50,293 bases of DNA, taken from positions 1 through 50,293 of the forward strand of contig CAKKSC010000041.1 of NCBI GenBank assembly GCA_919902985.1, in the 5' to 3' direction. Numbering within the stretch: position 1 is the stretch's first letter; every line of letters begins with the position of its first letter. The translations under genes were made by a program, and so were the position numbers. The notes beneath the pieces were generated by a model. It was not told the origin of the DNA and made no database searches. It saw only the letters and a program-made list of their open reading frames with translations. The DNA is from Desulfuromonadales bacterium. GTDB lineage: Bacteria > Desulfobacterota > JAENJC01. Below, piece by piece: positions 6,295-50,090 of the stretch.

Positions 6295-7236
6295 ATGGAA
6301 GTGTTTCAGGCATACGGTAGAACAGATGTAGCTTATAAAATGGATATACAACCGATAAAGGAAATCACAGCAAAAATCTTGTTGGGGGACTGCAAGAAAG
6401 TCTTGAAAACATTGGAGGACAACTCCGTTGATCTTATCGTAACATCCCCACCCTATGCCGACAGCAGGTCAGGCACTTACGGCGGAATAAAGCCGGATAA
6501 GTATGTCGAATGGTTCTTGCCCATAACTGCTGAACTTTTGCGCGTCTTAAAACCTTCTGGGACTTTTATACTTAACATCAAAGAAAAAGTCGTTGACGGC
6601 GAAAGACACACCTACGTAATAGAACTCATTCTGGAAATGAGGAAACAAGGGTGGTTGTGGACAGAGGAGTTTATCTGGCACAAGAAAAATTGCTATCCCG
6701 GCAAATGGCCTAATCGGTTCAGAGATTCTTGGGAAAGGCTTCTACAATTCAACAAAAGCAAGCAATTCAATATGTATCAAGAAGAGGTAATGGTTCCAGT
6801 AGGTGATTGGGCCAAAACAAGGCTTAAAAACCTAAGCGAAACCGATTTGAGACGAGATAATTCAAAGGTTGGAAGCGGTTTCGGGAAAAAGATAGCGAAC
6901 TGGATTGGCAGGGACAAGGCGTATCCGACCAACGTTCTTCGCTTGGCAACAGAGTGTGCAAATAAGAATCATAGTGCAGTGTTTCCTGAAGCCCTTCCTG
7001 AGTGGTTTGTGAAACTATTTACAAAAGAAGGTGATTGGATTTTAGATCCATTTATGGGGTCAGGGACAAGTATTAAAGTGGCTCAAAGAATGATGAGAAA
7101 CTCAATTGGCATCGAAATATTGAAAGAATATTATGATATGGCAAAGGCTGACGTTAACGAAAAAGAATATCTACTTTTAGAGGAGCAAGCCGAATATGAA
7201 CCCAATCGGAATAAACGAAGTCGTAAAGTATGTTGA
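6295..7236 (+). CDS. Beta-class amino-DNA methyltransferase (modification subunit)
   Basis: This 313-residue DNA methyltransferase has catalytic motif IV TSPPYAD (SPPY at 51-54) before the AdoMet motif I DPFMGSGT (251-258), the beta-class order. SPPY rather than DPPY favours N4-cytosine methylation but does not exclude N6-adenine. A central variable region (about 130-215) is the likely target-recognition part. The first ATG follows a GGGGAAGG ribosome binding site; an alternative start is at 6343. The 3' end overlaps the endonuclease gene by 41 bp, so expression is coupled. The protein should protect host DNA at the sites cut by the neighbouring enzyme. Confidence 0.93.
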   Translation: MEVFQAYGRTDVAYKMDIQPIKEITAKILLGDCKKVLKTLEDNSVDLIVTSPPYADSRSGTYGGIKPDKYVEWFLPITAELLRVLKPSGTFILNIKEKVVDGERHTYVIELILEMRKQGWLWTEEFIWHKKNCYPGKWPNRFRDSWERLLQFNKSKQFNMYQEEVMVPVGDWAKTRLKNLSETDLRRDNSKVGSGFGKKIANWIGRDKAYPTNVLRLATECANKNHSAVFPEALPEWFVKLFTKEGDWILDPFMGSGTSIKVAQRMMRNSIGIEILKEYYDMAKADVNEKEYLLLEEQAEYEPNRNKRSRKVC

Positions 7237-7924
7237 AGAAAATATCGGCAGTTTCCATACAAAAAGGCTGCAAAACCTTGAGCTGCTTCAGTTAAACAAG
7301 ATACTAAAAAGAAAAAATCCTTACCTATTCAAGGCCAAGAACATCTTGACTGCGCAGGATTTGGTCAAGGTACTTTTGGATGCCCATCTATCATCTCAGG
7401 AAGAAACCATCTTTGGAGAATTCCTTGAGGGACTTGCGAGGTTCATATGCGGAACAGTTTATAGCGGTAAAAAATCCTCTGCAGAGGGAATTGATTTAGA
7501 GTTCAGCAATGAGGGCATTCATTACCTTGTTTCCATAAAATCAGGACCAAACTGGGGAAACAGTGGTCAAATCAATGATATGAAAAAAGCCTTTAACAAG
7601 GCAATAAAAATTCTGAAAACCAATAATCCAAGAATTCATATAATTGCTGTCAATGGTTGTTGTTACGGAAAAACAAAAAAGATAGAAAAAGACGGTTATC
7701 AAAAACTGTGCGGACAGAGATTCTGGGAGTTTGTTTCAGGCAGTGAAAATCTATACACTGACATTGTAGAACCCTTGGGACATAAGGCGAAAGAAAAAAA
7801 TGATAAATTCTTCGAGTCATACGCTCAGATAATCAACAAGTTTACTCACCAGTTCATGAACGATTTCTGCGTTGATGGAAAGATCAACTGGGAAAAATTG
7901 GTCAAATTCAATTCCGGCAAGTAA
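7196..7924 (+). CDS. PmeII-family type II restriction endonuclease
   Basis: This 242-residue protein matches the PmeII-family endonuclease pattern as I recall it: an N-terminal VVKYVEENIGSFHTKRLQ, then RKNPYLFKAKN, AQDLVKVLLDAHLSSQEET, and the core GIDLEFSNEGIHYLVSIKSG (about 99-118), followed by PNWGNSGQI, VNGCCYG and CGQRFWEFVSG. D in GIDLEF and K in SIK are the likely metal-site residues of a PD-(D/E)XK fold. The recognition site cannot be read from sequence. The start overlaps the methyltransferase. Both genes and the AIPR gene share AT-rich composition. The protein looks full length. Confidence 0.88.
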   Translation: MNPIGINEVVKYVEENIGSFHTKRLQNLELLQLNKILKRKNPYLFKAKNILTAQDLVKVLLDAHLSSQEETIFGEFLEGLARFICGTVYSGKKSSAEGIDLEFSNEGIHYLVSIKSGPNWGNSGQINDMKKAFNKAIKILKTNNPRIHIIAVNGCCYGKTKKIEKDGYQKLCGQRFWEFVSGSENLYTDIVEPLGHKAKEKNDKFFESYAQIINKFTHQFMNDFCVDGKINWEKLVKFNSGK

Positions 7925-7998
7925 TCAAAATACAAAAACTATGGTTCTTTCGTAATCAAGTTGAAATCTTAGGGTCAAGTAGTCCGCGGGGGAATATG

Positions 7999-8020
7999 GG
8001 TGTCGCGTCTACTCTTTTTA
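7999..8020. repeat. 22-bp direct repeat, copy 1 (left of fic)
   Basis: The core TGTCGCGTCTAC followed by CTTTTTA after one variable base recurs at 9202-9223 with one mismatch over 22 bp. Both copies follow a GGGAAT stretch. The pair brackets the Fic gene. Confidence 0.8.
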
Positions 8021-8035
8021 AGAATCGGCCATATT

Positions 8036-8092
8036 AGCCTGACGCCGGAGGAGAGTGGGGTTGCGGCGGGGAGGAGTCTAAACTATGTTTAA
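8036..8092 (+). pseudogene. Relic of a restriction-modification enzyme C-terminus
   Basis: A short frame reads SLTPEESGVAAG and matches, with degeneration, the C-terminal YGLTPEEIGVVEG end seen in many large methyltransferase/restriction enzymes (Eco57I-type). The 37-bp segment at 8038-8074 is nearly identical to 43775-43811, where the more complete version is found. No upstream coding region of such an enzyme remains. The relic supplies the GGAGGAG ribosome binding site for the Fic gene that starts at 8085. Confidence 0.5.
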
Positions 8093-9122
8093 ACCAAAAT
8101 ATTCTATTACAAATCATATCCTGAATAATCTCATCAAGACGGCAGAGGCAAAGGCTGTGCTTGATAACGCCTATCTTGTCCCAAAGTGGGAAGTGGCTTT
8201 GCGGAGAGAGGCCTTGATTAAAAATGCCCATGCCTCCACTGCCATAGAAGGCAATCCCCTTTCACTTGAGCAGGTCTCCGAGCTGGCGATGGGCAGGGAT
8301 ATAATGGCCACAAGAAAGGCAAAGGCGGAGGTTTTGAATTATCTGAAACTGCTTGAAGACCTGCCAAAGCTGACTGAAGATAAAAAGATAACAGAAAAAG
8401 TAATATTGAAAATCCATAAGCTTATTACAAAAGATGTCCTTGAAAGTCCAACGGATAGTGGGGTTTATAGGAAGCGTCAGGTGATTATCGGAAACAGATT
8501 GACAGGCGCTGTCACGTTCCGTCCGCCTGATACTGAAAAAGTCCCTGTTTTAATGAGAGGATTTGTTGCATGGTTGAACAGCAGGGATGCATCGGAGACA
8601 AACCCTGTGCTGGCCGCAGGTATAGGCCATTATGAGTTTGTAAGGATTCATCCTTTTATAGATGGGAACGGACGAACAGCAAGGTCATTGGCGAGCCTTA
8701 TCCTATACCTGAGAGGGTTTGACACAAAGAGGTTTTTTGCTCTTGATGATTATTATGACAGCGATAGACAGTCATATTACAAGGCGCTCCAAAGCGTGGA
8801 CTCAAAAACAGTGGATATAACGGAATGGCTGGAATATTTTACCTATGGCGTGGCTTTGCAGATAGAGAAGGTAAAGGAAAGGGTTTTATCTCTGAGCAGT
8901 GATCTCAAACGGAAGCAATTGAAGGGTCAGGTAGCCCTGACCGAGCGACAGATGAAGATTGTGGAGAGAATAAATAATCATGGATACATCACTAATAAAG
9001 AAATCCGAGAGATGTTTGAGCTTTCCGATGAGGGAGCGCTGAAAGAAATTAAAAAGCTATTATCTCTTGAGGTGATAAAGTCAGAGGGCAAGGGACGTAA
9101 TGTCAGATATCTCCTTGCCTGA
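8085..9122 (+). CDS. Fic-domain AMPylase-type protein with C-terminal HTH
   Basis: The Fic active-site motif HPFIDGNGRTAR (189-200) is complete, so the protein is predicted to transfer AMP or another nucleotide moiety from an NTP to a target hydroxyl. An N-terminal inhibitory helix motif STAIEGN (51-57) precedes it in the same chain, the class II arrangement in which a glutamate blocks the nucleotide gamma-phosphate. GNRLTGAVTFRPPDTEKVP is the characteristic flap region. Residues about 285-345 look like a winged helix (TERQMKIVERINNHGYITNK). The length of 345 is usual. The ATG follows GGAGGAG. The gene sits alone between two 22-bp direct repeats, which suggests it arrived as a cassette. Confidence 0.93.
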   Translation: MFKPKYSITNHILNNLIKTAEAKAVLDNAYLVPKWEVALRREALIKNAHASTAIEGNPLSLEQVSELAMGRDIMATRKAKAEVLNYLKLLEDLPKLTEDKKITEKVILKIHKLITKDVLESPTDSGVYRKRQVIIGNRLTGAVTFRPPDTEKVPVLMRGFVAWLNSRDASETNPVLAAGIGHYEFVRIHPFIDGNGRTARSLASLILYLRGFDTKRFFALDDYYDSDRQSYYKALQSVDSKTVDITEWLEYFTYGVALQIEKVKERVLSLSSDLKRKQLKGQVALTERQMKIVERINNHGYITNKEIREMFELSDEGALKEIKKLLSLEVIKSEGKGRNVRYLLA

Positions 9123-9408
9123 GTTGGCGATTAGGTTGGCTATTGAGTTGGCGATTAAGATAATTTGAAGGCGGCCTCAACCCCTTAAGTGGGAATTCAT
9201 AGGTGTCGCGTCTACACTTTTTACAAGCTCAAATCTAATTTTCCCTCTCTCCCCCTCCAAACCCTCTCCAATCGCCCCTTCGCAAATCCGCCATCGTCTT
9301 TAACCACGGAGAACTCAGAGGAAGCCTACTGATATAAAAGATATTAAAAAAAGATGCAAATCGGGAGAGATAAGGGATAAGCTGCTTGGGTGGGAATCAG
9401 GCAGTGAA
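9123..9408. other. Gene-free interval with short tandem motifs
   Basis: Directly after the Fic stop are three imperfect copies of GAGTTGGCGATTA-like sequence, then the second 22-bp direct repeat at 9202-9223, a pyrimidine-rich stretch, and an AACCACGGAGAACTCAGAGG segment of a type scattered elsewhere in the window. A short open frame reads KDIKKRCKSGEIRDKLLGWE; it has no credible start and I cannot identify it. Confidence 0.5.
9202..9223. repeat. 22-bp direct repeat, copy 2 (right of fic)
   Basis: It matches 7999-8020 with a single mismatch (A for T after TGTCGCGTCTAC). The two copies are about 1.2 kb apart in the same orientation. Confidence 0.8.
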
Positions 9409-26541: not shown

Positions 26542-29142
26542 ATGTCGAGAAAAAAACTTTATCTGATTGACGGGAATTCTTATATCTACAGGGCGTTCTT
26601 CGCGATTCCACATCTTTCCAACTCCAAAGGGATTCCTACCAACGCCGTATACGGCTTCACTAACATGCTTATGAAGGTGATAAAGGAGGAGGCGCCCGAT
26701 TACCTCGCCATTGCCTTTGACTCCAAAGGCCCAACCAGAAGGCACATTGAATACGAGGACTACAAGGCCCACAGGCCTGCCATGCCGGACCCCCTGGCAA
26801 GGCAGATACCTTACATCCATAGGATGGTTGAGGCCTTCAACATCCCTGTCCTTATCATGGAAGGCGTTGAAGCCGACGACATAATAGGGACCATAGCCAA
26901 AAAGGCGGAGAAAGACGGACTGGAGGTCGTCATCATCACTGGCGACAAGGACATATTCCAGATAATATCGCCCCATATAAGGATCTATGACACCCTTAAG
27001 AACAGCTACTTTGGTGTGGATGATGTTAAGAAACGCTTCGGAACCGAGCCGGAAAGGGTTGTAGAGGTAATGGGGCTCATGGGTGACTCATCCGATAACA
27101 TTCCGGGAGTGCCTGGTATTGGGGAGAAGACAGCGAAGGCCCTTATAGAGGAGCATGGTACTATAGAAAATCTCCTTGCCAATATCGAGAAGATAACAAA
27201 GCCGAAACTTAAACAGAGCCTGAAGGAGAATGCTGAACTGGCAAGGCTGAGCCGATCTCTTGCCACCATCCAGACAGATATACCTATTGAAACTGAATAC
27301 AAGGACCTTTCCAGACCGGAACCGGACAATGAGAGGCTTCTTCCCCTCCTTAAGGAGCTGGAGTTCAGCTCAATGCTGAAGATGGCCGCCCCTGAAGTAG
27401 CTGTGAAGGAGCATAAGGTGGCCGAGTCGGAAGAGGCTATTAGCAGTCTTGTAACAGAGCTGGCTGGAGAGAAGGAAGTCGCGCTGAAGCTGATATCTGA
27501 CAATAAAGATCCGATCCTTGGAAGGATCACAGGGATTGCCCTTGCAAGGGAAGGAGAGGCGTTTTATGTTCCTGGGGTCAGGGATCAGGGGTCAGGGGTC
27601 AGCAAAATCTTTGAAGGCAATCTTGTCAAGATCGGCCATGACCTGAAAAAAGAAATGATACTGTTAAAAAAGCAGGGTGTTGAGCTGGCTGAGCCGATGT
27701 TCGACACTATGGTTGCCTCTTATCTTATAAACCCCGTGAGGTCTGAGCAGACCCTTGAGGCCATTGCGCTGGAGTTCCTGGGAAAGAATGTTATAGAGCA
27801 GTTGTCAGGGGTCGGGGGTCAGGGGTCAGATGAAAAGAGCAGGATTGACTACGCCTGCCATGCGGCTGAGGCCATATTCGAGCTTAAAGATATTCTGTTA
27901 GAAAAGCTAAGAAATGAAGGGCTTGAGGAACTTTTTTATGATGTGGAGATGCCCCTTGTGCGGGTACTTTCAGATGTGGAGACGAACGGAGTAAGGATTG
28001 ACAGGAATTTCCTTAACGAAATGTCAAAGGAAGTCGATTCAGACCTCCAAGAGCTTATGAGTAAGATTTACTCCCTTGCAGGGCAGGAGTTCAACATAAA
28101 CTCCCCGAAGCAGCTTTCTGAAATCCTTTTTGAGAAGTTGAAACTTCCAGCTACAAAGAAGACAAAGACCGGGTATTCCACTGATGTTGAGGTATTGCAG
28201 CAGTTATCAGCAATACACGAACTCCCTGCCGAGATACTGACGTACAGGACTCTTTCCAAGCTCAAGTCCACATATATAGACTCCCTCCCTTCAATGATAA
28301 ATCCTGAGACAGGGCGAGTCCATACATCCCTCAATCAGACAGTTACAGCCACAGGGAGGCTCTCCTCCAGCGAGCCTAATCTGCAAAATATCCCTATAAG
28401 GACCGAACTCGGAAGGAGGATAAGGGAGGCCTTCACTGCTGAGCCGGGGAATCTCATCCTTTCTGCGGACTACTCCCAGATAGAGCTCAGGGTCATGGCG
28501 CATATGTCTGGAGACCCCATACTAATCGAGGCCTTCAAAAGGGGTGAGGACATCCATGCAAGGACTGCGGCAGAGGTCTTCGGGATCATGTCGGGCCTTG
28601 TAACGTCAGAGATGAGGAGGATGGCGAAGGTGGTGAACTTCGGGATCATCTACGGGATGTCCCCCTTCGGCCTTTCAAAAGACCTGGGGATATCACAGAA
28701 GGATGCCAAGAGGTACATAGACTCCTACTTTGAGCATTACAGGGGGGTAAGTACCTTTATAGAAAAGACCCTGCACGATGCCAGGGAAAAGGGTTACGTG
28801 AGGACGCTCCTTGGAAGAAAGCGGCCTATCCCTGAACTTTCCGGCAAGGATGCGGCGGCGCGCCAGTTCGGTGAAAGGATGGCTGTAAACACCCCCATAC
28901 AGGGAACAGCGGCAGATATCATAAAGCTGGCCATGATTAATATCTCCAAAAGACTCAAAAAAGAAGATCTAAAGAGCCTCATGATCCTCCAGGTGCATGA
29001 CGAACTTGTATTCGAGGTGCCTGAAGGAGAGCTGGAGATTATGAAGAAACTGGTTTGCGAAGAGATGGAAGGGGTAATGGAGCTGAAGGTCCCACTGAAG
29101 GTTGATATAGGTGTAGGAAAGAATTGGAGTGAGGCGCACTGA
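26542..29142 (+). CDS. polA: DNA polymerase I
   Basis: This 866-residue enzyme has the 5'-3' exonuclease (YRAFFAIPHLSNSKGIPTNA, VEADDIIGTIA, GDKDIFQII, LMGDSSDNIPGVPGIGEKTA), then a 3'-5' exonuclease-like region, then the polymerase domain (SADYSQIELRVMAHMSGD, RRMAKVVNFGIIYGMSPFGL, LQVHDELVFEV). The proofreading domain appears inactive: the expected D-x-E is replaced by KLISDNKD, and the last acidic motif by YACHAAEAIF. Two in-frame insertions of GGGGTCAG-type sequence (about residues 344-354, GVRDQGSGVSK, and 424-430, SGVGGQGSDE) lie in loops of that domain. The start is an ATG without an obvious Shine-Dalgarno. Confidence 0.97.
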   Translation: MSRKKLYLIDGNSYIYRAFFAIPHLSNSKGIPTNAVYGFTNMLMKVIKEEAPDYLAIAFDSKGPTRRHIEYEDYKAHRPAMPDPLARQIPYIHRMVEAFNIPVLIMEGVEADDIIGTIAKKAEKDGLEVVIITGDKDIFQIISPHIRIYDTLKNSYFGVDDVKKRFGTEPERVVEVMGLMGDSSDNIPGVPGIGEKTAKALIEEHGTIENLLANIEKITKPKLKQSLKENAELARLSRSLATIQTDIPIETEYKDLSRPEPDNERLLPLLKELEFSSMLKMAAPEVAVKEHKVAESEEAISSLVTELAGEKEVALKLISDNKDPILGRITGIALAREGEAFYVPGVRDQGSGVSKIFEGNLVKIGHDLKKEMILLKKQGVELAEPMFDTMVASYLINPVRSEQTLEAIALEFLGKNVIEQLSGVGGQGSDEKSRIDYACHAAEAIFELKDILLEKLRNEGLEELFYDVEMPLVRVLSDVETNGVRIDRNFLNEMSKEVDSDLQELMSKIYSLAGQEFNINSPKQLSEILFEKLKLPATKKTKTGYSTDVEVLQQLSAIHELPAEILTYRTLSKLKSTYIDSLPSMINPETGRVHTSLNQTVTATGRLSSSEPNLQNIPIRTELGRRIREAFTAEPGNLILSADYSQIELRVMAHMSGDPILIEAFKRGEDIHARTAAEVFGIMSGLVTSEMRRMAKVVNFGIIYGMSPFGLSKDLGISQKDAKRYIDSYFEHYRGVSTFIEKTLHDAREKGYVRTLLGRKRPIPELSGKDAAARQFGERMAVNTPIQGTAADIIKLAMINISKRLKKEDLKSLMILQVHDELVFEVPEGELEIMKKLVCEEMEGVMELKVPLKVDIGVGKNWSEAH

Positions 29143-40080: not shown

Positions 40081-41181
40081 ATGTATATCTTTCTTATCAC
40101 TTTTTTTCTTCTTTACGCGAGCATGCACTTCTACCTCTTCCTGAAGGCAAAGGCTGTATTTGCCTTTGGGCCTTTGGTTAGTATACCCCTTATCCTTTTC
40201 ATGGCAGGGATGGTATTTTCGCCTTTAACTGTTTACAGCCTTGAAAGACAGGGACTGGACTCTGCTGCACGGCTGACGGCCTATATCGGCTACACATGGA
40301 TGGGGGTCCTCTTCCTCTTCGTCTCCTCTTCCATCTTAATAGATCTTTGCCGACAAACAGACCTTCTGAGAATTTCCCCACGCATATCATTTTTTATACC
40401 GCTTCTTATTTCTATGTCCATTGCAACTTATGGCTATTTCGAGGCGCTTGATATTCGCACAGAGATGGTGATAGTCAAAACCCCGAAGATACCTAAGAGT
40501 ATTGGGAGGCTGAGGGTCGTCCAGATTTCAGATGTCCATCTGGGGCTTATTGTAAGAGAAGAAAGGCTGAAGAGTATCCTGAATGAAGTGAAAAGGTCGG
40601 AGCCGGACCTCCTGGTGTCAACCGGAGATATGGTGGATGGGCAGATCAACAGCATGACAGGGCTTGCGGAACTCCTGCGTGAAATAAATCCGAGATATGG
40701 AAAGTTCGCAGTAACAGGGAACCATGAGTTTTATGCAGGGCTCGAAAACAGCCTGGATTTCTTGAAAAAGGCCGGGTTCAAGGTCTTGAGGGGTGAAACT
40801 ATTTCCGTAGCAGGGATTCTCAATATCGCAGGCGTTGACGACCCTGCGGGAAAACAGTTCGGCCTCTTCGCAGAAGTGCCGGAAAAGAGACTGCTCTCAA
40901 CGCTTCCGAAGGGGACATTTACACTCCTGCTCAAACACAGGCCTGTAGTGGATAAAGATGCGCGCGGTCTTTTTGATTTACAGCTCTCCGGGCATGTCCA
41001 TAAAGGACAGATATTCCCATTCAGCATTATTACAAGGCTTTTTTACCCTGTCCGTGCAGGAGAGATGAATATCATTGACGGCGCCTCTTTATACGTAAGC
41101 AGAGGGTCAGGAACCTGGGGCCCTCCTGTCCGCTTTCTCTCACCACCAGAGGTTACAGTGATTGATCTTGTGAGCGATTAG
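40081..41181 (+). CDS. Membrane-anchored metallophosphoesterase (YkuE/YaeI-like)
   Basis: This 366-residue protein has four predicted N-terminal membrane spans (about 1-130) and then a calcineurin-type phosphoesterase domain: QISDVHLG, VSTGDMVDGQ, VTGNHEFYAG, LLLKHRP and LSGHVHKGQIFP give the usual dimetal ligands. Related enzymes (YkuE, YaeI, LpxH-like relatives) act on phospholipid or UDP-lipid substrates; the substrate here is not decided. A GGAG lies 8-10 bases before the ATG. No operon partner. Confidence 0.92.
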   Translation: MYIFLITFFLLYASMHFYLFLKAKAVFAFGPLVSIPLILFMAGMVFSPLTVYSLERQGLDSAARLTAYIGYTWMGVLFLFVSSSILIDLCRQTDLLRISPRISFFIPLLISMSIATYGYFEALDIRTEMVIVKTPKIPKSIGRLRVVQISDVHLGLIVREERLKSILNEVKRSEPDLLVSTGDMVDGQINSMTGLAELLREINPRYGKFAVTGNHEFYAGLENSLDFLKKAGFKVLRGETISVAGILNIAGVDDPAGKQFGLFAEVPEKRLLSTLPKGTFTLLLKHRPVVDKDARGLFDLQLSGHVHKGQIFPFSIITRLFYPVRAGEMNIIDGASLYVSRGSGTWGPPVRFLSPPEVTVIDLVSD

Positions 41182-41674
41182 AGTTGATTTGATTTGGCTT
41201 ATCAAAGCATTCCAATAAGCCTTGCAGGCTATCCAGAAGTTGTTCTAGTTGCTTAACCCCCTTGAACCTTCGATGTTTTAGATTGTTTAATTGCGTCAAA
41301 ATGTGCTATTTTCTGCATATCTTCTATGCAAACCGACCTGACATTTTTTACAAACGAACCCGGGGCCACGCTGCTTGACAGGTTCCGCAAGACACTGAAG
41401 GATGTCAGGTATTTCGACATCCTTGTCGGATACTTCCGCACCAGCGGGAGGGGAGGACTGCCACAAGGCTTGTCTACAGGCATTTCGGGATAGATTACCG
41501 GCGGCTTAAGCAGGAGAGACTTTTTTAGCATTTACGCATGCTTTAAATTCTGAAATTGGCTACTGCATGTATTCAAAAACCTGCATAAAGTTGCTTTAGC
41601 CGGGTTTAAAACGGGTTATACGGCACTGTTTTTATAACTTATGGATTACATTCTTATATGTAAAAAGCTGCATA
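41182..41674. other. Interval with no intact gene
   Basis: The stretch after the phosphoesterase gene contains a helicase relic at 41326-41493 and otherwise no credible coding region. The bases after 41500 are AT-rich and show no ribosome binding site. Confidence 0.5.
41326..41493 (+). pseudogene. N-terminal relic of a SNF2-type helicase with PLD-like domain
   Basis: The 55-codon frame reads MQTDLTFFTNEPGATLLDRF then RKTLKDVRYFDILVGYFRTSG, the N-terminus of large helicases that carry a phospholipase-D-like nuclease domain and are commonly found with restriction or defence systems. It then loses homology (GRGGLPQGLSTGISG) and stops. The remaining thousand or so residues expected are absent. 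It is a deletion scar next to the AlbA_2 gene. Confidence 0.55.
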
Positions 41675-42049
41675 ATGTCGTATAAAAAGCACTGCTATGT
41701 TCATATGATTGAGAAGCGTCAAAAACAAATCGCTTTATTCATTGCAGCGTTATTGGCAATAGGGGGACTTTTCTTTTCCCTCATTATGCCTGCACAAACT
41801 TTATATACATACTGGTCAGGCACACAAAATGAACTTCGTCATGAATACTTTTTGGTTATATTTTACTGTCTCCTTATTTCAGATGTTTTTTGGTGCATAG
41901 TAGCTTTATGTCTCGGTTTTGCCAAGAGTCTTATATCAAAAAAAATCTTGTGGGCCGGCACTGCACCGTCGCTTGTTCTAACTTCAGGTTTTGCATTAAT
42001 GGGGCTTTTCACCATAGCAATGATAATTATTCAAAAACTAAAAACATAA
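41675..42049 (+). CDS. Small membrane protein of unknown function
   Basis: This 124-residue protein has three strongly hydrophobic segments (about 19-38, 58-82 and 95-118), a basic N-terminus and a short basic tail (IIQKLKT). No family recognised. The ATG at 41675 has no good ribosome binding site; an alternative is 41705. It is AT-rich and lies among relics, so it may be a recent acquisition or not translated efficiently. Confidence 0.5.
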   Translation: MSYKKHCYVHMIEKRQKQIALFIAALLAIGGLFFSLIMPAQTLYTYWSGTQNELRHEYFLVIFYCLLISDVFWCIVALCLGFAKSLISKKILWAGTAPSLVLTSGFALMGLFTIAMIIIQKLKT

Positions 42050-42316
42050 CACGCTGCTCGGAGGAAACCCAGAGGAAACCCCCGGTTTAAATTTCAATCC
42101 CCAAAGCTGACAAAGCCGCTTCTGCAACTGTATTCAGGGTTCTGTGATTTTGGGAGAGAAAACGGGACCATTTAATTAGGCGAAACTTAGAGGATTTGAA
42201 GTTGTAGCGATCTTGAAAAAATTGGTACCTAAAAACTGCAAACCACAAACCACAGAGAAAAAAGATTTAATGATGTTGCCTGAATACCAGATTACAGGTT
42301 TAAAAGGAAGCGTCGG

Positions 42317-43750
42317 ATGACGGAAAAAGAAAAGCTTAATCTCCTGATCCGGGAAGGTGAAGGTCTTACCGTTGAATTCAAGGAACGCTTTACCGCCCGC
42401 ATAGATGAGGATATGGTTGCCTTTGCCAATACAAAGGGCGGGATTATTCTTCTTGGCGTGAGAGATAACCGCACCATTGCCGGAGAGGAACTGACCAACG
42501 ACCTTAAGGCCCGCATCAATTCAGTCGCAAGAAACTGCACCCCGCCTGTTAAGGTAAAGCTGAAGCAGATACAGAACATAATTGCTGTAGAAGTGCCGCA
42601 AGGCGATGAGAAACCCTATGCTTGCGGTTCAGGCTATTTCAGAAGGCTCGACGGCGCAACGCAGAAGATGAGCAACCATGAACTGAGGACCATGTTCCAG
42701 GAGCATGAAACTACCCCCTTTGAAGAGAAGGTCAATAAGGATGTTTCATGGGATTACATATCAAAAGATAAAATCCAGGACTTCCTTAAAGAGGCAGATG
42801 TCGGAATAAAGAGAATAGCGCCGCGAGACCTGTTGACAAGCCTGAGTCTGGCCCACAACGACAAGATTACCAACGCAGGCGTTTTATTCTTTGCCAAAGA
42901 GCCGCGCAAATTCATTCTACAGTCGCAGATGACCCTCATTGCGTTCAAGGGCAAAGACCGTGTCCATATCTATGACAGGCAAGACGTACAGGATGACCTT
43001 CTTACACAGTTCAATTCAGCCGTGATGTTCCTGATGAAGCATCTGAACCGTAGGAGCGAGATAAAAGGTGTGAACCGCAAAGATATCTATGAGATACCTT
43101 TCGAGGCCCTGCGTGAGGCTGTGGCAAATGCGATAATCCACCGTGATTACAGCATCAGGGGGACAAGCCTGATGGTGGAGGTTTATGACGACAGGGTCGA
43201 GATAGTAAACCCAGGCATATTCCCCGGCGCAAAAAAGAGCGACTTCGGCAAGATTTCCGTCAGGAGGAATGAGCGGATTGCGGATATGTTCTTCAGGATG
43301 GACAAGGTGGAGCGTGCAGGGACAGGAATCAGGAGGATGAAAGAGGCAATGTCATCGGCTGGGCTTCCTGCACCGGGCATCAGGCAGAGCGGTTTTTATA
43401 CGATTATATTTAAAAGGCCTGTTGAAGAGAGGGTAGAAGAGGCTACCCAGAAAACTGTCGGGAAAACTACACAGAAAAGGTTGGTAGAAAAGGGGGTAGA
43501 AAGTACGGAGAAAGTACGGAGAAAGTACGGAGAAAGTACGGAGAAAATTGTTTTGGCAATAGCAGGGAATCGGTTCATTAAAACCCATGAAATAGCAAAT
43601 AAAACTAATTTATCGCAAAGCACAGTTGAGAAAATTATTGCTAAACTTAAAAAAGATGGAATGCTAAAGCGCATCGGCCCAGACAAAGGAGGACATTGGG
43701 AGATAGTTCCAGGCGAGCAAGATAATGAACAGGAGCTTAACGCTGATTGA
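42317..43750 (+). CDS. AlbA_2/Schlafen domain, HATPase-like and winged-helix protein
   Basis: This 477-residue protein begins with the AlbA_2 (Schlafen-type) domain: EGLTVEFKERFT, EDMVAFANTKGGIILLGVRD. A HATPase_c_4-like region follows (FEALREAVANAIIHRDYS, VYDDRVEIVNPG), as in transcription regulators once annotated as RecG-like. The C-terminus has a winged helix (IAGNRFIKTHEIANKTNLSQ). Between them, at 43503-43546, is an exact 4 x 11-bp tandem repeat encoding STEK-VRR-KYGE-STEK. Because 11 is not a multiple of three, a change in copy number would shift frame and remove the winged helix. The ATG follows GGAAG. A restriction-enzyme relic overlaps its 3' end, and a helicase relic lies upstream. 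Confidence 0.88.
   Translation: MTEKEKLNLLIREGEGLTVEFKERFTARIDEDMVAFANTKGGIILLGVRDNRTIAGEELTNDLKARINSVARNCTPPVKVKLKQIQNIIAVEVPQGDEKPYACGSGYFRRLDGATQKMSNHELRTMFQEHETTPFEEKVNKDVSWDYISKDKIQDFLKEADVGIKRIAPRDLLTSLSLAHNDKITNAGVLFFAKEPRKFILQSQMTLIAFKGKDRVHIYDRQDVQDDLLTQFNSAVMFLMKHLNRRSEIKGVNRKDIYEIPFEALREAVANAIIHRDYSIRGTSLMVEVYDDRVEIVNPGIFPGAKKSDFGKISVRRNERIADMFFRMDKVERAGTGIRRMKEAMSSAGLPAPGIRQSGFYTIIFKRPVEERVEEATQKTVGKTTQKRLVEKGVESTEKVRRKYGESTEKIVLAIAGNRFIKTHEIANKTNLSQSTVEKIIAKLKKDGMLKRIGPDKGGHWEIVPGEQDNEQELNAD
43503..43546. repeat. Four perfect 11-bp tandem repeats (GTACGGAGAAA) in coding sequence
   Basis: Four uninterrupted identical copies lie within the AlbA_2 gene; a degraded half copy (GTAGAA) precedes them. 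The unit length puts the repeat through all three frames. Confidence 0.95.
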
Positions 43751-43817
43751 TCGGCTGGTCTATGTTCTTTACGGCCTGACGCCGGAGGAGATTGGGGTTG
43801 TGGAGGGGAAGGGATGA
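43743..43817 (+). pseudogene. C-terminal relic of an Eco57I-type restriction-modification enzyme
   Basis: In a frame different from the AlbA_2 gene, the sequence reads LIDRLVYVLYGLTPEEIG then VVEGKG and stops. This is the characteristic C-terminal end of large methyltransferase-endonuclease proteins. It begins at the tail of the AlbA_2 gene. The last 37 bp (43775-43811) recur at 8038-8074. Confidence 0.65.
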
Positions 43818-43874
43818 AATCGAACAATTCTTGGTATTGGTTTCTACTTCAGAGTGTGTAATAATTAGTTATCT

Positions 43875-49000: not shown

Positions 49001-50090
49001 TATCAGAGCCGGTATAGATGCTGCCGTTCAGGGTAACATTCTTTTCCTTAGGATTTGCGTCCTTAACCGTAATCACAGGGAGGATATCCGAGTTGTAAAA
49101 CCTGCCCTCTTCAACTCCTGCGAATGACATGACAGGAGAGGTCTTATCCACCACAAAACTCAAGCTCTTTGAAGACCGATTCCCGGAAAGGTCAGAAGCG
49201 TCAACTTTTAGGGTATAGCTCCCATCTATGGAGATTGGGATGGCGGAGTAAGAGGAGCCGTTAAGGGTAATCCTCTTTTCCTTAAGGTTTGCGTCCTTAA
49301 CCGTAATCACAGGGAGGATATCCGAGTTGTAAAACCTGCCCTCTTCAACTCCTGCGAATGACATGACAGGAGAGGTCTTATCCACCACAAAACTCAAGCT
49401 CTTTGAAGACCGATTCCCGGAAAGGTCAGAAGCGTCAACTTTTAGGGTATAGCTCCCATCTATGGAGATTGGGATGGCGGAGTAAGAGGAGCCGTTAAGG
49501 GTAATCCTCTTTTCCTTAAGGTTTGCGTCCTTAACCGTAATCACAGGGAGGATATCCGAGTTGTAAAACCTGCCCTCTTCAACTCCTGTGAATGATATGA
49601 CAGGAGAGGTCTTATCCACCACAAAACTCAAACTCTTTGAAGACCGATTACCGGAAAGGTCAACAGCGTCGACTTTTAGGGTATAGTTCCCATCTCTGGT
49701 TACAGGAGCTCCGAGATAGGCGGAACCATTTAGCATGACCTCCTTGCTTGAAAGTTGCTCATCAAACACTTTTACGACAGGATTGATATCTGTGGCATAG
49801 TAAGCTCTATCATGGACCCCGCTTACCGTTATTTCAGGAGGAACCTTGTCTGGAGGACCTGCCTCTACTGTTGCACCCTTTCCAGCATCATTGGCTGCCA
49901 TTGCATCATGTGAGGCTGAGATCAGAAGGCAAGAAACAGCCAGGATAATTGCAAGCCCTATTTTTGGAGTTTCTTGCAAAAGTCTCAAATTACCCTTCAA
50001 CACGCTCAGGGTAAACGGGATGTGAGAAGTGGTCATTGATTTTTTCACGAACCTCTTTATCATGCTGTTGATATTAGTAATATTAAACAT
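46047..50090 (-). CDS. Large exported protein with Ig-like and OmpL47-type repeats
   Basis: This 1347-residue protein has a long N-terminal extension and a signal-peptide-like segment (IGLAIILAVSCLLISASHDA, cleavage near AMA). Four Ig-like repeats of about 78 residues follow (VDKTSPVISFTGVEEGRFYN, ITVKDANLKEKRITLNGSSY, VDASDLSGNRSSKSLSFVVD). Then come ten OmpL47-type repeats of about 90 residues with a recurrent SGVKxTEYRxDxGxW ... YRSxDNxGNxE ... VDNTPPVT pattern. It is probably a cell-surface adhesin-like or matrix protein; no C-terminal anchor was identified. The long N-terminus could mean the true start is a later ATG (for example 50033); no clear ribosome binding site decides this. Convergent with the GGDEF gene. 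Confidence 0.82.
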   Translation of the reverse strand: MFNITNINSMIKRFVKKSMTTSHIPFTLSVLKGNLRLLQETPKIGLAIILAVSCLLISASHDAMAANDAGKGATVEAGPPDKVPPEITVSGVHDRAYYATDINPVVKVFDEQLSSKEVMLNGSAYLGAPVTRDGNYTLKVDAVDLSGNRSSKSLSFVVDKTSPVISFTGVEEGRFYNSDILPVITVKDANLKEKRITLNGSSYSAIPISIDGSYTLKVDASDLSGNRSSKSLSFVVDKTSPVMSFAGVEEGRFYNSDILPVITVKDANLKEKRITLNGSSYSAIPISIDGSYTLKVDASDLSGNRSSKSLSFVVDKTSPVMSFAGVEEGRFYNSDILPVITVKDANPKEKNVTLNGSIYTGSDITEEGRMELKVDAVDMAGNKSSLRRHFYIDKTFPVTTLQIGLPMITDNGKLSITGSTQVVLAASDSGTAPSGINRIEYGLDDISSWNIYKKSISLGSREGPHKIHYRSVDNAGNIEAAKEADVTVDNIAPVTQIHAGEPKSSLKGVSLLVSRDTEFTMDASDNISGVSKTEYRVNKGQWHPGPSFNIANEGRQIIEYRSIDRLGNTETARSLDVVVDNTAPVTAISMGSPRFSSSENKIFITGGTAITLAAMDALSEVAASEYRIDSGPWTHYAPLKIQAEGEHLVEYRSRDQMGNLEKGRSTTLIVDNSPPVSRISIGSPNFKNQDEILLATGKTSFAISASDNLSGAAETEYRIDGGAWRNYTVPFSIPTEGKHVIAYRSTDNTGNLESAQSLSIVIDNTPPVTAINAEKPRYEAGSAVFITGITAVSLNSTDNLAGVQKSEYRIDNGEWTAFNALIDLASLTDGKHSIGYRSSDNLGNLENEKLMMIVIDNTPPLAKINIGMPFYKSADGVNYITSQSSLTLNVTDDLCGVKKSEYRLDSGKWLHNAPFKISSGGSYLIESGNSDNLGNFEITRILSVTVDNSPPVTTIAPGSPRHDVAGAIFVPGKTEFILNVSDNLSGIKQTQYRINGGVWTVYEAAFNLKSLPDGKQTIGYRSVDNLGNLEIEKTLSIIVDNTTPSSSINISDPIYNSVKNISYITSETTFSLSAEDNLSGVKITEYRVDNGQWLPASTFRINSEGNHKIAYRSVDNVGNVETEKIISMTVDNTPPVTGIASKDLKYKAGGTIYATSKTEFYLSAMDNLSGVKETDYRIDISAWVTGTTKYTLSTTDKNPEVKVTEYKADSSAWITGSTLTLPIDGTHTIGYRSRDNIGHLETEKTLTVIIDNIPPYTTIDFSMKYNDGSNLLVSRNSQVTLNASDGLSGVKATYYRFDNLKDWHTYSGLFELSELSNGIHTIYYKTVDNVDNSENEKSITIKTIGRD
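49057..49758. repeat. Three 234-bp near-identical tandem repeats in the exported protein gene
   Basis: The period is 234 bp (78 codons) with units starting at 49057, 49291 and 49525. The first two copies are almost identical and the third diverges after about 49680. They encode the Ig-like repeats. Such identity implies recent duplication or gene conversion, and makes the true copy number sensitive to assembly. Confidence 0.9.

Follow-up and report, generated by a model that had tools for sequence, protein, structure and literature searches.

In type III plasmid partition, the winged-helix protein TubR binds several cis-encoded direct repeats (TubR-tubC) and is also a repressor (PMC5016525). 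We describe here a locus of similar make-up, in which direct repeats about one helical turn apart lie in cis with the gene of a winged-helix (wHTH) protein predicted to bind them, within a 50,293-nt stretch of DNA from a Desulfuromonadales bacterium (contig CAKKSC010000041.1; hereafter the window). The two differ in that tubC, with its 12-bp spacing, precedes its operon and acts together with the TubZ filament, whereas the repeats described here lie inside the gene or at its end; in the window the array is intragenic, and a test for its motif at promoters, given below, is weak. Replication iterons and parC repeats are likewise short direct-repeat rows adjacent to the gene for the protein that binds them, but the arrays considered here track wHTH classes across unrelated enzymes. 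Contingency loci share with this locus an in-frame tandem repeat whose unit is not divisible by three, yet no 11-bp allele found here (0 of 16) is out of frame. The HsdS subunits of type I systems carry tetrapeptide (12-bp) linker repeats whose copy number shifts by whole units, both of which are also seen among our loci; in contrast to HsdS, our loci further include 11-bp and non-coding forms and show conservation at the DNA level. Finally, defence operons are known to encode autorepressors, among them the restriction controller proteins and the Aca proteins (cf. AcrIF24). These resemble the present case as helix-turn-helix proteins that act on the operon they belong to, in a restriction or anti-defence context, an action only predicted here, and differ from it in that our proposed operator is a direct-repeat row within the gene or at its end rather than a promoter site.

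The array lies in a plus-strand gene (42317-43750) for a 477-aa protein, which by its Pfam matches belongs to the SLFN AlbA_2/HATPase_c_4 (COG2865-like) family. An SLFN_AlbA_2 domain (residues 15-118, 42359-42670; PF04326, 66.5 bits, cut-off 25.3) is followed by a HATPase_c_4 domain (residues 282-359, 43160-43393; PF13749, 69.4 bits, cut-off 26) and a C-terminal wHTH (residues 406-463, 43532-43705), within which HTH_24 matches residues 408-451 (PF13412, 25.7 bits, cut-off 21.9). The preliminary description reported four perfect tandem 11-bp copies at 43503-43546; we find these in a slightly longer array at 43498-43546 on the plus strand, AGAAAGTACGG x4.45, which spans 49 bp with 100% matches and a TRF score of 98. 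Its placement inside the coding frame and directly before the C-terminal winged helix is borne out by Pfam and by a structure model built from ten sequences (mean pLDDT 64, pTM 0.48), which we use solely for linker and wHTH confidence. In this model the array encodes the end of a low-confidence linker (residues 371-403, 43427-43525, pLDDT <50), directly before a well-folded wHTH (406-463, pLDDT mostly 81-86). Just 5' of the array, a degenerate repeat of about 12 bp (43473-43502, plus strand, TRF) resembles the 12-bp arrays of relatives.

The array is not a chance feature of the window: with up to three mismatches allowed, the expectation for the 16-mer AGAAAGTACGGAGAAA is 0.54 matches per window, yet it occurs four times, every one of them inside the array. 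Elsewhere in the host genome, an 18-mer with three mismatches has 5 forward and 4 reverse matches, against 9 and 5 for the reversed pattern; the host genome thus has no second array of this kind, the remaining matches being at control level. The doubled 11-bp unit occurs in 1 of 395 genomes of the phylum, namely its own, and the array is absent from the viral contigs searched. A 2.65-kb stretch that holds the gene (41181-43828, plus strand) is missing in the sister genome G001, where about 22 bp take its place between flanks 90-91% identical; the gene is therefore accessory, and relatives offer no allele of the array. As a separate observation, CCTGACGCCGGAGGAGANTGGGGTTG is found both at 43775-43800, after the AlbA_2 gene, and at 8038-8063, before a Fic gene in the same window; we take it to resemble the end of a methylase gene, of which it may be a remnant.

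Relatives carry comparable arrays at the corresponding place, with close relatives having perfect 12-bp arrays (ACTACCCAGAAA x4, AGTAAGGAGAAA x4 and GAAAGGTTGGGT x11.4). Of 138 distinct loci whose core can be traced right through, an array is present within 400 nt in 100 at a TRF score of at least 40, with periods of 12 bp (65 loci), 11 bp (23), 24 bp (5), 20 bp (4), 13 bp (2) and 21 bp (1), so that nearly all consist of 10-13 bp units or their doublets, clustering at 10-13 and 20-24 bp. Units of 6, 9, 15 or 18 bp are not found among the best arrays, either here or at scores of at least 50, and the period thus approximates a helical turn, not a multiple of three. At the higher score, arrays are found in 83 of 133 ORF tails and within 300 nt past the stop codon in 14 of 136 (two of these with longer units of 31 and 41 bp), in contrast to 1 of 138 cores and 0 of 92 5' flanks. 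With tail and 150 nt after the stop taken together, 87 of 123 family genes have an array at this score and 36 have none, compared with 3 of 147 control ORFs in a masked control that omits some wHTH-only loci and every locus from L168 on; the three control arrays have periods of 46, 7 and 23 bp, none of them 10-13 bp. The masked control replaces an earlier one (22 of 395 ORF tails and, past the stop, 9 of 369 segments), in which most hits came from antisense or other-frame ORFs lying over the same arrays.

A further sample gives the same picture. Two wHTH queries returned 17 and 15 plasmid records, 20 of which have a C-terminal part new to the analysis; in a scan that began 150 nt ahead of the match and ended 120 nt past the stop, these carry an array of 10-13 or 20-24 bp in 17 cases at a score of at least 50 and in 19 at 40 or more, with none in 20 for the control of two 400-nt segments. 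They span Pseudomonadota, Bacteroidota, Campylobacterota, Bacillota, Deinococcota and Mycoplasmatota. Among the earlier records on the two wHTH lists, L218, L222 and L223 have arrays scoring at least 50, L220 and L221 have weaker ones, and L217 and L219 have no such array by TRF, as is also the case for L215, L216 and L277. Several of the genes directly adjoin an hsdR, hsdS or DNA methyltransferase gene. The L222 gene (77-1534) is annotated as a Fic family protein; Pfam finds AlbA_2, HATPase_c_4 and Fic-like_C in it, without a Fic domain. Our literature search, which covered neither subscription papers nor preprints, returned no paper describing such arrays.

The sequence of an array follows that of the adjacent wHTH. 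Over 83 arrays, array similarity is associated with wHTH similarity once the core is controlled for (partial Mantel 0.356, 0 of 500 permutations), whereas its association with the core, controlling for the wHTH, is -0.07 (490 of 500). Because array and wHTH are neighbours, this result by itself could reflect co-inheritance. The 11-bp arrays match the 12-bp arrays of loci with a similar wHTH despite their differing reading frames (rank correlation 0.25; 25 of 2000 permutations), examples being L128-L043, L058-L032, L062-L145 and L127-L117. In addition, where the amino acid is the same, codons are identical in 182 of 224 positions in the arrays (81%), whereas the neighbouring wHTH in these pairs gives 588 of 1601 (37%), a comparison of 62 non-independent pairs from 33 loci with dissimilar cores and nearly equal peptide units; the wHTH is the appropriate baseline here because it moves with the array, and the cores also give 37% (70 pairs there).

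By alignment, array and wHTH are exchanged together in two Arcobacter-type plasmids, which carry the same AlbA_2-type gene before hsdR. Identity is 97.5% (615/631) in the left flank and 97.1% (712/733) in the right, but 54% (105/194) in the 199-column segment between them, which differs in both array and wHTH, the array units being ACTAGGGTAAAA in L273 and GTTGGGTGAAAA in L274. Each of the two has counterparts elsewhere: a solo wHTH of Treponema (L223, ISQKGVEWQL) carries ACTAGGGAGAAA, close to L273 (LTVKGIEWQI), and L004 and L075 (ISITAVEKQI, ISTTAVENNI) carry GGTTGGGTGAAA-like units, close to L274 (ISTTAIEKHI). The proposed target thus changes with the DNA-binding domain in the Mantel and codon tests, in the match of 11-bp to 12-bp arrays and in this swap. 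In four loci (L041, L146, L023 and L145) a further wHTH, of a different class, has been kept downstream, and in L027 two share a single frame; in all five the second wHTH has its own array. L002 and L004 have 586 bp in common (87%), most of it downstream DNA, and their AlbA_2 proteins differ strongly.

The window holds a second example, in which most of the array is non-coding. A SoFic-like Fic gene ending in a wHTH (8085-9122, plus strand, domain search) is followed by a 12-bp array, AGTTGGCGATTA x3.2 (9120-9159, plus strand, TRF), which overlaps the Fic stop codon and extends into non-coding DNA. Its wHTH belongs to a separate class (..ITNKEIREMFELSDEGA..), in which the array lies at or past the stop codon, and TTGGCGATT is common to the Fic and AlbA_2 examples. 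Besides this Fic gene, four relatives (L169-L172) each have about three 12-bp units there, and arrays in this position are also seen in AlbA_2 or HATPase proteins (L173, by eye, and L175), in DUF4062/HATPase proteins (L179, L182 and L183) and in L176, an NtrC-like response regulator with a sigma-54 activation domain and the same wHTH class, where TCCGGATTATG (11 bp x4.7) lies right behind the stop. Seventeen loci were tested in this way, of which L174, L177 and L178 are without such an array and L180, L181 and L184 are unscored. We had expected the arrays to extend to canonical SoFic-type Fic proteins, which have another wHTH class; none of 30 such ORFs has a 10-13 bp array (two have other arrays, of 7 bp and of 24 bp x1.9, and L248 is cut short), and they serve as a specificity control instead. 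Since Fic with one wHTH class has an array and with the other has none of 10-13 bp, the array tracks the wHTH class and not the enzyme. Over the block 7993-9157, G001 shows 94% identity, with similarity stopping at the array, and for this reason Fic and array may form a mobile unit. Direct repeats GTGTCGCGTCTACNCTTTTTA at 8000-8020 and 9203-9223, of which none is expected by chance, enclose this gene together with the array. Shortly before the Fic gene, an N6/N4 methylase gene (6295-7236) overlaps that of an EcoO109I-type restriction endonuclease (7196-7924).

The array of the AlbA_2 gene was at first proposed to be a phase-variation switch, in which slippage of 11-bp units turns the wHTH end on and off, and the arithmetic behind this proposal is correct. 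The unit is not a multiple of three and lies within the frame; the wHTH is in frame with 1, 4 or 7 units, and 0, 2, 3, 5, 6 or 8 units give predicted truncated products of 406-429 aa, so that gain or loss of one unit would remove the wHTH. The units are perfect, and copy number does change in such arrays, those of relatives differing in number: stretches 94% identical on plasmids of Legionella anisa and L. hackeliae have about four and about three 12-bp units, and a single base differs in concerted fashion. It is the switch itself that finds no support. Freely slipping 11-bp arrays would be out of frame in about two thirds of cases, but the wHTH shares the frame of the core at every one of the 16 loci with 11-bp arrays, in a sample of one genome per species in which rare copy-number variants would escape notice; among 100 loci with a wHTH downstream in any frame, the first wHTH is in the core's frame in 97, and the three broken loci carry 12-bp arrays. 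One wHTH class keeps 11-bp arrays in 8 of 8 loci, and its period is thus stable; 12-bp units, moreover, outnumber 11-bp units, and in other members the array is non-coding, where frame switching is impossible. The Fic array and its G001 relative both have three units (94% DNA identity, no gaps). A search for near-identical strains for copy number gave no match in E. coli, two records at 99.9-100% for a Klebsiella Fic gene, and no array in the 2 examined of 33 records for Pseudosulfitobacter plasmids. We consider a phase switch unlikely.

The other alternatives each account for part of the data. Tetrapeptide units might simply lengthen a flexible linker, with the 11-bp form an accident; the commonest form is indeed a 12-bp in-frame array, and the array encodes part of the modelled low-confidence linker. 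Such a linker motif would be expected to have a unit that is a multiple of three and to be conserved as peptide and not as DNA. What we find are an 11-bp unit in the window and 11-bp arrays in 23 of the 138 loci, arrays behind stop codons, best arrays without 6, 9, 15 or 18 bp units, and codon identity far higher in arrays than in the wHTH, all of which make this account improbable. We would give a similarly small chance to the array being a recombination or break site for the exchange of C-terminal modules, with wHTH binding irrelevant. The array does lie within the exchanged segment and close to the upstream joint, left-over modules remain downstream in four loci with a tandem pair in the fifth, and L002 and L004 share downstream DNA behind different alleles; yet the arrays of exchanged modules differ in sequence and so offer no homology, and in the Fic class the arrays follow the stop, which is the wrong side for a joint of this kind. 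Neutral slippage, in a linker that tolerates it, would explain perfect units, which imply recent turnover, and would suit the low confidence modelled for the linker, but it is very hard to reconcile with a period confined to about 10-13 bp, the link to the wHTH and similar units in distant phyla, and we regard it as highly improbable.

The position and period of the arrays, their link to the wHTH, the constraint on their DNA and their joint swapping with the wHTH are established by computation. We think it likely, from these sequence comparisons, that the array is a row of target sites for the wHTH, spaced by about one helical turn and exchanged with it as a cassette, rather than a switch or a linker motif. 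The candidate sites, 11 bp apart here and 10-13 bp apart in relatives, would be read by the wHTH encoded immediately downstream, and the cassette would pass among AlbA_2/HATPase, Fic, DUF4062/HATPase and response-regulator proteins. It probably counts as a novel form of cis direct-repeat operator or iteron. One way to read the 11-bp period of the window is as a 12-bp unit (e.g., AGTAAGGAGAAA of L034) minus one base, a loss that would be tolerable because four units, 33 bp beyond one unit, restore the frame. For a broader reading, in which bacteria possess exchangeable self-addressed DNA-binding cassettes, each a wHTH with its own target array in the linker or after the stop, passed on as C-terminal modules between AlbA_2, Fic, DUF4062 and response-regulator proteins and often found in restriction or defence operons, we put the chances at about even; linker-borne arrays would on this reading be of 12 bp, or of 11 bp read in three frames.

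As to function, the purpose of the cassette is probably self-regulation. Several copies of the protein most likely line up through their wHTH on the repeats of their own gene, as TubR does on tubC (PMC5016525), and may thereby limit transcription through it, whether as autorepression or as an intragenic roadblock or feedback site. Since the sole array of the host genome lies in its own gene, any effect most probably falls on that gene or its operon, and a number of cassette genes sit in restriction-modification operons. Upstream of the genes the array motif does not stand out clearly (mean best match 8.62, compared with 8.47 permuted, the observed value being reached in 39 of 1000 permutations), which lends little support to promoter autoregulation. 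If the target does lie beside its reader in each genome, many natural pairs could yield a recognition code for this wHTH family, and the targets of a large uncharacterised group of DNA-binding domains, several of them linked to Fic or restriction, would be readable from adjacent DNA. A coding repeat that resembles a slippage hotspot would then be an operator, explaining why its period stays near the helical turn regardless of reading frame and cautioning against naming coding repeats of this period phase-variation switches.

The window contains other repeats as well. A 234-bp repeat in 2.9 copies (49023-49699) lies in a minus-strand gene for a large Ig-like-domain protein, and two short 7-bp arrays, GGGGTCA and GTCAGGG (27574-27602 and 27804-27829), lie about 200 bp apart.
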